Part shown: positions 29,824 through 33,356 of the stretch, piece by piece
How positions within the stretch are numbered: position 1 is the stretch's first letter
Layout of the letters: every line of letters begins with the position of its first letter
DNA from: Oceaniovalibus guishaninsula JLT2003
Lineage (GTDB): Bacteria > Pseudomonadota > Alphaproteobacteria > Rhodobacterales > Rhodobacteraceae
NCBI RefSeq assembly: GCF_000299575.1
Contig: NZ_AMGO01000011.1
Location: 62,001-126,000, forward strand
DNA length: 64,000 nt
Direction: 5' to 3'
The notes under the pieces: generated by a model
Databases searched by the model: none
Told to the model about the DNA's origin: nothing
Seen by the model: only the letters and a program-made list of their open reading frames with translations
Position numbers and translations under genes: made by a program

Positions 29824-31248
29824 TTACGCGGTGTCGCGTCGCAACGGCGCTTCATCGGCGGCAGTCCGGGACGGCTTCTGCGCATCGGCGATGGCGGCAA
29901 GAACCACCCTGTTGCGCCCGGCGCGCTTGGCCTCGTAAAGCGCGACATCCGCGGCATCCAGCGCGCGCTGCGGCGCAACCGGGCCGCCCATCGCGCAGGT
30001 CGCCCCGATGCTGACGCTGACGGGAAGGGTTCTGCCGTCGGGCAATATCGCGGGCCTGTCCGCGATGGCCAGACGCAGCCGCTCTGCCGCCAAGGCGGTT
30101 TCGGAAGGCGACGTGTCGGACAGGGCCACCAGAAACTCCTCGCCGCCGATGCGCGCGATCAGATCGACGTCGCGGATGTTGTCCGATAGCTGCCGCGCCA
30201 CGTCGCTCAGCACAGCATCGCCGGCCGCGTGCCCGTGTCTGTCGTTCACCGCCTTGAAGCGGTCGATATCCAGGATCAGGACGCCGTATCCCCGCCCTTC
30301 CAGACGGGGACGCGCGGCCAGTTCCGCCAGATGATGAAGCGCATAGCGACGGTTATAAAGACCCGTAAGCGAATCCCGCGCGGCCATCGCAAGGCCTGCA
30401 TCGACCGTAGCGCGCAATCTGTCCGCGTCGCGCTTCAGCCGGACCTGTCGGGCAATCCGCAGCGCCAGTTCCTGCGGGTCCGCATCCGTCTCGAACAGAT
30501 CGCTCGCCCCCAGATCGAGGGCGCGTCCCGCATAGGTCCGGTCGTCCTGGTCGTATCCGATTAGAATGGCGGACCGGCGGGTTTGCGGACGCGACCGCAA
30601 CTCGGACAGCAGCCACAGCATTTCGTCCGCCGGGGCGGTGTCGGCCAGCACGACGACATCGGGCGGCGCGCGATCGTCCCCAAGCGACAGCGCCCCGGAC
30701 GACGGGATGACGGCGATGTCGTGCTGCAAGCGATGGCGCAATGCGTCGGCGGTCGCGGCGGACTCCTCCGAACTGCCGATGAACGCGATCCGCGCAGGGG
30801 CGTCGAACGATCCGGCCGCTTCCGAAAAGCCCAGCCGCGAGGCCGTCATGTCCCTGCGCCGCAGTTCTCCGCGCGTTTCCGCCGCCCGCAGGACCGAGCG
30901 CAGGTTGGCGAGAAGCCACGCGCGGTCGGAGGGGCGGGAAATCAGGGTCGCCGCACCCGCTTCCAGCGCTGCCAGCCGTGCATCGGGCGTCTGCGTCGCC
31001 CCGATCAGGATGACCGGCAGATCCGCGTTCCCGGCGGTCTTGACGATACGGCGGCAAAGTTCCGTCCCGCTCATGTCGGGAAGGTCCTGCGCGGCGATCA
31101 CAAGGTCCGGCGCCGCGGCAGCGATGTCTTTCATCGCCGTCGCGCCATCCGCCACCGCATGCACGTCATAGCACGCGTTCCCCAGGGCGGACCGGAGGGC
31201 GATCCGGTTGATCGCAAGGTCATCGACGATAAGAATGCGCCTCGACAT
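29824..31248 (-). CDS. PleD-like diguanylate cyclase with inactive receiver
   Basis: The 474-aa protein has a receiver domain (RILIVDDLAINR onward, residues 3-120), a second degenerate receiver (about 145-280) and a C-terminal GGDEF domain with an intact GGEEF active site and an RxxD inhibitory site five residues before it (RDVD). It should make c-di-GMP. In the first receiver the phosphoacceptor position, Asp53 in Caulobacter PleD, is Ala53 here (the stretch reads PDLVIAAQDLPDMSG). The acidic pair D9/D10 is kept. Control by phosphorylation is therefore doubtful. I start at ATG 31248 (MSRRILIVDD). Confidence 0.92.
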   Translation of the reverse strand: MSRRILIVDDLAINRIALRSALGNACYDVHAVADGATAMKDIAAAAPDLVIAAQDLPDMSGTELCRRIVKTAGNADLPVILIGATQTPDARLAALEAGAATLISRPSDRAWLLANLRSVLRAAETRGELRRRDMTASRLGFSEAAGSFDAPARIAFIGSSEESAATADALRHRLQHDIAVIPSSGALSLGDDRAPPDVVVLADTAPADEMLWLLSELRSRPQTRRSAILIGYDQDDRTYAGRALDLGASDLFETDADPQELALRIARQVRLKRDADRLRATVDAGLAMAARDSLTGLYNRRYALHHLAELAARPRLEGRGYGVLILDIDRFKAVNDRHGHAAGDAVLSDVARQLSDNIRDVDLIARIGGEEFLVALSDTSPSETALAAERLRLAIADRPAILPDGRTLPVSVSIGATCAMGGPVAPQRALDAADVALYEAKRAGRNRVVLAAIADAQKPSRTAADEAPLRRDTA

Positions 31249-31357: not shown

Positions 31358-31636
31358 ATGCGGCGCGAATCTGCCGAAACGGTCGCGGTCGAGGCGCTGG
31401 CCTGGATCGCATCGGACGACGATGTCCTGTCCGAATTCATGGGTGCCACCGGTTCCGACCCTGCCGACATTCGGCAGCGCGCCGGCGACGCCGAGTTCTT
31501 GGGCGCCGTCCTCGATTTTCTGCTGATGCAGGATCGGTGGATCGAAGGGTTCTGCGACAGGAACGGATACGCCTATGACGTTCCGGGTCGCGCGCGCGCT
31601 GTTCTGCCGGGCGGCGATCTGCCCCACTGGACCTGA
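31358..31636 (+). CDS. DUF3572 family protein
   Basis: The 92-aa protein (SAETVAVEALAWIASDDDVLSEFM) matches DUF3572, a small helical family in alphaproteobacteria usually located beside pleD-like genes. Function unknown. I prefer ATG 31358 over TTG 31349 because family members start just before the ETVAVEAL helix. It is divergent from the PleD-like cyclase with 109 bp between starts. Confidence 0.85.
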   Translation: MRRESAETVAVEALAWIASDDDVLSEFMGATGSDPADIRQRAGDAEFLGAVLDFLLMQDRWIEGFCDRNGYAYDVPGRARAVLPGGDLPHWT

Positions 31637-31704
31637 GCCGCCGGTAACCGAACCTTAAAGTCCGACGACTAGCGTGGGGCCGTCTTGGTCGCGCGGTAAT
31701 TGGC

Positions 31705-32304
31705 ATGCACGGATTGGTGAACAGGTCGCTACAGGGTTTTTTGCAGGACACCTATGGCGACGAGGTCTGGCGCGACATCGCACGGCGGTCCGCACCCGAC
31801 CTGACCGGGTTCGAGCCGATGATGGAATACGAAGATGCGCTGACCCACGATGTGATCGCGGCGGCCTGCCGCGCCTTGTCAAAGACGCAGCCGGACCTGC
31901 TGGAAGATCTGGGAACGTATCTGGTGTCGCATCCGAACATGTCGCGTGTGCGTCGCCTCATGCGCTATGGCGGCGACGATTTCCGGGCGTTTCTCCATTC
32001 GCTCGACGACCTGCCCGAACGGGCGCGTCTGATCCTTCCCGACGCGCCATTTCCGGGGCTTCGGCTGACGGATATGGGGTCGGGTATCTACCGGCTGACA
32101 TGCCGCGGTGGCATGCCGGGGGTCGAGCATGTGGTGATGGGAATCATCCGCGCGATGGCCGACGATTACGGCGCGCTCGTGGTCCTCGATTGGGCGGAAA
32201 CCGCCGACGGCGGGCCCGATAGCGCCACGATAGACATTCACATGCCCGCCGACCGCTTTCACGAGGGGCGCGCCTTTGCGCTGACCGACGGGCTGGCGTC
32301 ATGA
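31705..32304 (+). CDS. H-NOX-like (heme NO-binding fold) protein, heme His absent
   Basis: The 199-aa protein aligns along its length with the H-NOX/HNOB family: MHGLVNRSLQGFLQDTYG at the start, DLLEDLGTYLVSHP in the middle and GIIRAMADDYGALVVLDW near the end. H-NOX proteins sense NO or O2 through heme held by a proximal histidine in the helix F-L-x4-V-H. Here that helix reads FLHSLDDLPERARL, putting Pro104 in the histidine position, and the Y-x-S-x-R heme-propionate motif is not clear either. Heme binding is thus doubtful. It overlaps the next gene (H-NOXA-GGDEF) by 4 bp, as in split sensor-cyclase pairs. Confidence 0.85.
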   Translation: MHGLVNRSLQGFLQDTYGDEVWRDIARRSAPDLTGFEPMMEYEDALTHDVIAAACRALSKTQPDLLEDLGTYLVSHPNMSRVRRLMRYGGDDFRAFLHSLDDLPERARLILPDAPFPGLRLTDMGSGIYRLTCRGGMPGVEHVVMGIIRAMADDYGALVVLDWAETADGGPDSATIDIHMPADRFHEGRAFALTDGLAS

Positions 32305-33356
32305 TGGCCGATATGGACCGGCGCGACGTCATCGACCGTGTCGCCATACCGCGGAAAGACGATGATTTGCTGTTGGGACGCCACGGGCTCGACCTGCTGA
32401 TGCCGATGCATGCCATGATCGATCCGGAGGGGCGGATCGTTCACATCGGCCCGAGCCTGTCGCGCTTGGCCGGCAATCGACCGCTTGTTAACCGAAAACT
32501 GACAGACTGCTTTTCATTCAACCGCCCCCAGACTGTCCGCGGACCGGCGGATCTGCACGGGATCGGCGGTCATCGCCTCGACCTTGCTTTCCGCGACGGG
32601 CGCGCGGTGCGGCTTCGGGGCGTGGCGGCGCCGCTGGCCGGGGCGGGGGGGCTGGTTCTGAACCTGTCCCTCGGCCTGCGCGAATTGGCCGATCTAGGCG
32701 GCGCGGGTCTGACCTGCACCGATTTCAGCGCGACGGACATGACCGTGGACATGCTCTATCTGATCGAGGGCAAGAATGCGGCGATGACCGAATCGCAGCG
32801 GCTGATCATGCGCCTGAACGGGGCGCGGCAGATGGCCGAGAAGCAGGCATTCACCGATACGCTGACCGGCCTGGGAAACCGCCGCGCCCTCGACCGGGCC
32901 TTGGCCGACCTTGTTGCCGCAGGCATTCCCTTCGCCCTTTGCAACGTGGATCTCGACTATTTCAAGCAGGTGAACGACCGCCACGGGCATGCCGCTGGCG
33001 ACGAGGTGCTGAAGGCGGTGGCCCATGTGCTGACCGACGTGACCCGCGACAGGGATCTGGTCGCGCGGACGGGCGGCGACGAATTCGTGATTCTCTTCCG
33101 CAACCTGGTGGATCCGGCAATCATCGACCGGATCGCGCGGCGCCTCATCGTCGGCGTGGAACAACCGATCACCGTCGGGGACGCGACCTGTCGCATCTCG
33201 GCGTCGATGGGGACGGCCCTGTCAACGGCATACGACGTGGCCGACCCCGTGCAGATGATGGCGGATGCCGACCTGGCGCTCTATGCATCCAAGAGGGCCG
33301 GGCGTTCGCGGCACGCGGTCTTCGATGCGTGCCTGCATGTCCCGCCATCCGAGTAG
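32301..33356 (+). CDS. H-NOXA (HNOBA)-GGDEF diguanylate cyclase
   Basis: The 351-aa protein has an N-terminal PAS-like H-NOX-associated domain (PMHAMIDPEGRIVHIGPSLSRL through GLTCTDFSATDMTVDMLYLIEG, about residues 33-155), a short coiled coil (about 155-185), and a GGDEF domain with intact GGDEF and an RxxD inhibitory site (RDRD, five residues upstream). This domain order, H-NOX / H-NOXA / coiled coil / cyclase, parallels soluble guanylate cyclase, but with c-di-GMP as output and the H-NOX part as a separate, overlapping gene (ATGA at 32301). Confidence 0.9.
   Translation: MMADMDRRDVIDRVAIPRKDDDLLLGRHGLDLLMPMHAMIDPEGRIVHIGPSLSRLAGNRPLVNRKLTDCFSFNRPQTVRGPADLHGIGGHRLDLAFRDGRAVRLRGVAAPLAGAGGLVLNLSLGLRELADLGGAGLTCTDFSATDMTVDMLYLIEGKNAAMTESQRLIMRLNGARQMAEKQAFTDTLTGLGNRRALDRALADLVAAGIPFALCNVDLDYFKQVNDRHGHAAGDEVLKAVAHVLTDVTRDRDLVARTGGDEFVILFRNLVDPAIIDRIARRLIVGVEQPITVGDATCRISASMGTALSTAYDVADPVQMMADADLALYASKRAGRSRHAVFDACLHVPPSE

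Follow-up and report, generated by a model that had tools for sequence, protein, structure and literature searches.

According to the accessible text of Kumar and Spiro (2017; PMC5588039), the P. denitrificans genes Pden_3719 and Pden_3720 overlap, and the His is missing from the H-NOX proteins of P. denitrificans and R. sphaeroides. The same text reports that the hnoX mutant of P. denitrificans is partly biofilm-deficient and that the dgcAB mutant overproduces biofilm, phenotypes from which its authors deduce an inhibition of DgcA by H-NOX for which NO is the stimulus. It also states that NO acts in P. denitrificans in the absence of H-NOX, so that this genetics does not isolate the input of the H-NOX protein. 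In the accessible part of Lee-Lopez and Yukl (2022; PMC8738867), the P. denitrificans H-NOX lies at the center of Group 5, a large GGDEF-linked cluster with His at the proximal site in <10% of members and mostly Pro; the authors ask how Group 5 senses anything. For D. shibae, papers citing the original work (PMC8846402, PMC7232146, PMC6473078) state in their accessible passages that H-NOX inhibits Dgc1 when NO-bound. R. capsulatus also has such genes, rcc02630/rcc02629. In the accessible portion of the open-access literature, we found neither heme content nor a ligand reported for a Pro-type H-NOX.

The window analyzed here, a stretch of 64,000 nucleotides from Oceaniovalibus guishaninsula JLT2003, carries a pair that belongs to this known group already touched by experiment (Table 1). 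Neither the pairing nor the lost His is new, both being already in Kumar and Spiro (2017) and Lee-Lopez and Yukl (2022). An earlier note on this DNA had described an H-NOX-like gene overlapping by 4 bp a gene for a PAS-like H-NOXA domain, a coiled coil and GGDEF, and had read the pair as the domain order of soluble guanylate cyclase (sGC) split over two proteins, with c-di-GMP in place of cGMP. The two open reading frames indeed share an ATGA. Pfam searches matched HNOB in the 199-residue protein (87.0 bits vs a cut-off of 25.5) and both HNOBA (30.9 bits vs 23.4; a partial match, with profile positions 11-56 of 216 aligned) and GGDEF (130.7 bits vs 23.8) in the cyclase; the absence of HNOBA from such searches was one of two outcomes that the earlier note would have taken as a refutation. 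NCBIfam gave no match for the H-NOX-like protein, and for the cyclase the GGDEF domain model alone was over its cut-off among the matches listed. The RxxD inhibitory-site motif, which lies five residues ahead of the GGDEF motif, is intact, as is the GGDEF motif itself, just as the note had stated. The AlphaFold model of the cyclase (mean pLDDT 89.8, pTM 0.68) has an alpha/beta N-terminal region, a predicted long helix where the note had placed a coiled coil, and a GGDEF domain. These results confirm that the H-NOX-like/cyclase pair is real, far beyond chance, and they support the sGC-like interpretation.

Table 1. Features of the H-NOX-like/cyclase locus, in window coordinates
Feature	Position	Strand	Remarks
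PleD-like response regulator cyclase	29827-31248	-	directly upstream of the hnoX pair, with the DUF3572 gene
DUF3572 gene	31358-31636	+	
GTAA-N7-TTAA element	31644-31658	+	61 nt upstream of the hnoX start codon
H-NOX-like (HNOB) gene	31705-32304	+	199 aa, stop included; residue 104 His-to-Pro; C133-R-G-G-M137 in place of YxSxR
ATGA stop/start overlap of HNOB and cyclase genes	32301-32304	+	4 bp
HNOBA-helix-GGDEF diguanylate cyclase gene	32301-33356	+	351 aa, stop included
HNOBA/PAS-like region of cyclase	32388-32672	+	about residues 30-124; limits approximate
Segment matching sGC beta PAS-to-coiled-coil linker and hinge	32709-32768	+	cyclase residues 137-156; D141 = Manduca beta D333, M151 = L343
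Predicted long helix, PAS-like region to GGDEF	32739-32849	+	cyclase residues 147-183, from the model
GGDEF domain	32847-33311	+	cyclase residues 183-337
RxxD (RDRD) inhibitory-site motif	33045-33056	+	cyclase residues 249-252
GGDEF motif	33072-33086	+	cyclase residues 258-262

Among PDB sequences, the H-NOX-like protein comes closest to human sGC beta-1 (E 1.2e-15), followed by Nostoc Alr2278 (1.2e-14). Its AlphaFold model (mean pLDDT 90.4) adopts the H-NOX fold, and superimposes on the Nostoc H-NOX (2o09_A) with a TM-score of 0.79 and 2.7 Å over 181 columns, and on sGC beta with a Z-score of 21.4 and 2.2 Å over 179 residues. The Z-scores for activated (21.4) and for unliganded or inactive human sGC beta (19.6-20.0) are too close to assign the model to the NO-activated state. 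The pair shares with sGC the succession of HNOB, HNOBA, linker hinge and helix, much as the note had proposed, but differs in being two chains, in having GGDEF instead of a class III cyclase domain as output, and in lacking the heme His. As the class III domain is absent, sGC would serve as a likeness in working only. On balance we favor, with modest confidence, the reading that the pair is a two-protein enzyme working like a split sGC with c-di-GMP as its output, in which a heme-free H-NOX subunit restrains the hinge of the cyclase. This reading is drawn from the Pfam domains, the loss of heme residues from a gene that nevertheless has a low dN/dS, the strict pairing and the match to the sGC hinge.

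The window pair shows no difference in kind from Group 5, sharing the Pro at the proximal site and the GGDEF partner. It resembles P. denitrificans HnoX/DgcA, as described in the accessible text of PMC5588039, in its overlapping genes and missing His; a P. denitrificans strain other than the one in that paper (L111) has Pro at the proximal site and the same signature residues of the lineage. The P. denitrificans HnoX is, however, 36% identical to the window H-NOX, and the N-terminal domain of DgcA is called unknown in that text. The D. shibae H-NOX/Dgc1 system (Bedrunka 2018) is similar in that H-NOX adjoins and acts on a diguanylate cyclase in the same bacterial order, but its H-NOX is reported as a heme NO sensor in the accessible parts of the citing papers, through which it is known here. 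In the same bacterial family, two further loci (L001, L003) likewise have adjacent HNOB and HNOBA genes, yet there the His and YxSxR are intact and the output is a histidine kinase, as called from motifs. The kinase-linked and the cyclase-linked pair occur side by side in one genome (G002). The heme-intact pairs beside kinases show that two-chain HNOB and HNOBA proteins with exchangeable outputs are a wider arrangement in Rhodobacteraceae. At another locus (L004), a His-bearing H-NOX is directly followed by a long protein that, judged from its motifs, combines GGDEF with an EAL-like part and has no RxxD at the usual place.

Residue shares were counted in 106 related proteins, the window included: 24 from the window genome and its relatives, 79 of the best 80 of 577 loci, and three of six plasmid matches. 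One locus (L092) was dropped as the second contig of a strain already present (L081); two rows duplicate others, and one (L047) is a fragment. As the 79 come from the best-matching end of the 577, the shares hold for this 106-protein sample. The H-NOX proteins from a same-genus genome (L013) and from Palleronia aestuarii (L036) are identical, a hint that the window belongs to Palleronia or to a genus placed with it.

In the window protein, Pro104 aligns with sGC His105, and residues 133-137 read CRGGM in place of YxSxR, the heme-propionate motif. By these two features it appears to be no canonical heme-binding H-NOX, in line with the heme-less sensor that the note had supposed, and the label of heme NO sensor was rejected, the proximal His and YxSxR both being missing. 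Residue 104 is Pro in 84 of the 106 proteins, Glu in 5, His in 4 and another residue in 13; the proximal His is thus absent in 102, which rules out a mutation of a single strain. YxSxR is present in none of the 106, compared to five of six canonical H-NOX proteins encoded in the same bacterial family. A quick tree requires five changes of the His label in all, at least two of them via well-supported branches; the four His rows are scattered over it, and the window protein and its P. denitrificans counterpart (L111) fall on the non-canonical side. This tree carries a long-branch warning at its root, and any order of His loss and regain read from it would be provisional.

A protein of this kind might still be a heme NO sensor, holding heme in the pocket with another proximal ligand or none, and inhibiting the cyclase when NO-bound. 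We regard this as unlikely. In its favor, all 106 proteins retain P117, which corresponds to sGC P118, four members have His at residue 104, the model of Kumar and Spiro, in its accessible form, keeps NO as the trigger for a His-less protein, and in D. shibae the H-NOX is reported to sense NO by its heme and to inhibit the neighboring Dgc1. The D. shibae report may, however, concern a His-type member, and the four His rows of our sample lack YxSxR like all the others.

The vacated pocket or its cysteine could instead sense another small molecule, redox state or reactive nitrogen species. Cys133, encoded at 32101-32103, stands at the place of the YxSxR Tyr and is found in 77 of the 106 proteins, where all six canonical rows have Tyr; moreover, the heme-free V. 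cholerae H-NOX is described, in the accessible part of the source, as answering oxidants through cysteines. Cys133 is nevertheless missing in 29 proteins, including those of P. denitrificans and P. ferrooxidans, and six of the 106 contain no Cys at all. According to the accessible text of PMC8738867, moreover, Group 5 lacks conserved Cys, which does not agree with the share of 77 seen here. Such a sensor seems distinctly improbable.

The split-sGC-like reading, by contrast with one in which the H-NOX-like gene is dispensable, draws on how strictly the two genes are kept together. Following in part the search across Rhodobacterales that the note had suggested, we found the pair to be common in Rhodobacteraceae. 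Of 60 relative genomes from inside and outside this family, 27 carry it, in each case with both genes. HNOB occurs at 33 places in 29 of these 60 genomes. Apart from six canonical places (L001-L005, L030), there are 27, one in each of 27 genomes, and all are adjoined by a match to the cyclase N-terminal profile; 24 were assigned by residue, and three (in G002, G015 and G020) by neighbor and score. Elsewhere, this profile matched only in G002 (1.1e-23) and G017 (2.2e-12), both times beside a canonical H-NOX gene. All 27 genomes fall within the 36 of the window's family, compared to none of the 24 outside it. Among 190 class-wide genomes, the H-NOX profile had five matches, three in the window's family (~1e-81) and two in others (1e-25 to 1e-28). 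In the 106 related loci, the cyclase is next door in 105, the remaining locus stopping at a contig end. The gene spacing is -4 in 55 of these 105 pairs, and 104 of the 105 neighbor cyclases carry GGDEF together with RxxD. The sole cyclase frame taken without either motif belongs to L045.

In eight locus pairs, the H-NOX gene has a dN/dS of 0.04-0.25 and the cyclase gene one of 0.07-0.27, rough values from simple NG86 counts with several dS >1. Both frames are open and dN/dS is low, which rules out a frameshift or pseudogene. The H-NOX-like protein is kept by selection despite its lost ligand residue. That it is a decaying relic beside a cyclase no longer regulated would fit the loss of the two best-known heme features, yet is very improbable given the dN/dS well below 1, the pairing across 27 genomes, the 23 invariant columns among 23 H-NOX-like sequences and the phenotype of the P. 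denitrificans hnoX deletion reported in the accessible text of PMC5588039.

As the structural matches of the cyclase model were filled by GGDEF chains, the PAS part was assessed by a sequence profile, built from 22 cyclase N-terminal parts and run against PDB sequences. It matched residues 206-369 of Manduca sGC beta with an E-value of 8.5e-9 over 150 profile positions, in addition to kinase H-NOXA domains (1.1e-6), sGC alpha (6.5e-5) and human sGC beta (4.4e-4). The sGC beta match spans PAS, linker and hinge helix, so the likeness goes further than the earlier note had suggested and takes in the hinge that joins PAS to the coiled coil; this extent is an addition of the present analysis to the published descriptions. 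In the hinge, the invariant D141 aligns with Manduca beta D333, D146 with D338, and M151 with L343. The Manduca sGC cryo-EM paper places the bend of the coiled coil at beta L343 and describes residues 333-345 as highly conserved.

A second addition is a pointer from the H-NOX side, where residues conserved only in the lineage seem to cluster where sGC H-NOX touches PAS and linker. Lineage-specific positions were those conserved in 93% or more of the 106 proteins and not in the six canonical rows, and contact regions were taken from sGC with human and Manduca numbering treated as equal. Fourteen of the 29 lineage-specific positions fall within the 54 of 199 contact-equivalent positions (Fisher one-sided p 0.007), a value to be read as a pointer, not proof, since the regions were picked after the motif had been seen, the numbering was equated and the contrast rows were six. 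For all 37 conserved positions, 15 lie within the contact-equivalent set (p 0.037). Arg83, Arg84, Arg87 and Arg106 of the H-NOX-like protein and D141, D146 and E156 of the cyclase would offer charge partners for such a contact.

In the proposed mechanism, the H-NOX-like protein would be a dedicated regulatory subunit that has lost canonical heme binding, and would form a complex with the cyclase. Its alpha-E/alpha-F face would dock on the HNOBA (PAS) domain and on the hinge at the start of the cyclase helix. Holding or releasing this hinge would alter the way in which the helix pair of the dimeric cyclase presents the GGDEF domains, and the predicted c-di-GMP synthesis would be lowered or allowed by the hinge state, with product feedback via the RxxD site. 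The input would presumably be other than canonical heme-bound NO. By analogy with the published genetics of P. denitrificans, the effect of H-NOX on the cyclase would be inhibition.

The gene pair also has a recurrent upstream element. A TTAA starts at -63 to -38 before hnoX in 101 of the 106 related loci, and TTnG-N7-TTAA occurs in the last 80 nt before hnoX in 55 of the 106, against a background of 63 places in 1.21 Mb (both strands, 83 loci), upstream sites included. In 36 of the 101 loci, TAnnnT follows 11 nt after the TTAA; the corresponding region of the window is 31644-31675. The element was not seen at the P. denitrificans locus, where the best window, like that of P. ferrooxidans, has four mismatches to it. 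As R. capsulatus rcc02629 is reported to be CtrA-regulated, the element is possibly a putative CtrA half-site. The full CtrA site TTAAC-N5-GTTAAC, allowing up to two mismatches, was found 53 times forward and 60 times reverse in the genome, compared to 80 and 80 for the reversed control; being no commoner than the control, it leaves the CtrA reading to the conserved TTAA part.

As to genomic context, the PleD-like gene is present in 30 and the DUF3572 gene in 35 of 83 fetched loci (flanks up to 3.5 kb). In the assembly of the window genome (99.99% complete), GGDEF was matched twice and EAL once. Both GGDEF genes, the PleD-like one and the HNOBA cyclase, lie here with starts 1.05 kb apart, so that a single short segment would encode whatever c-di-GMP synthesis by GGDEF domains is seen in the assembly.

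The question of which signal a heme-less H-NOX passes to its cyclase has been in print since 2022, in the accessible text of PMC8738867. Nature offers in this pair a clear-cut example of an sGC-type sensor without its heme ligand in which the partner and, it seems, the contact surfaces have been kept, and it separates the mechanical role of the H-NOX fold from the role of heme. For Rhodobacteraceae as a whole, we put forward more tentatively that a NO-receptor domain may have become an obligate subunit free of heme and clamping a diguanylate cyclase at its PAS/coiled-coil hinge, keeping the hinge mechanism of sGC while answering a signal other than heme-bound NO or acting as a brake set by its protein level.
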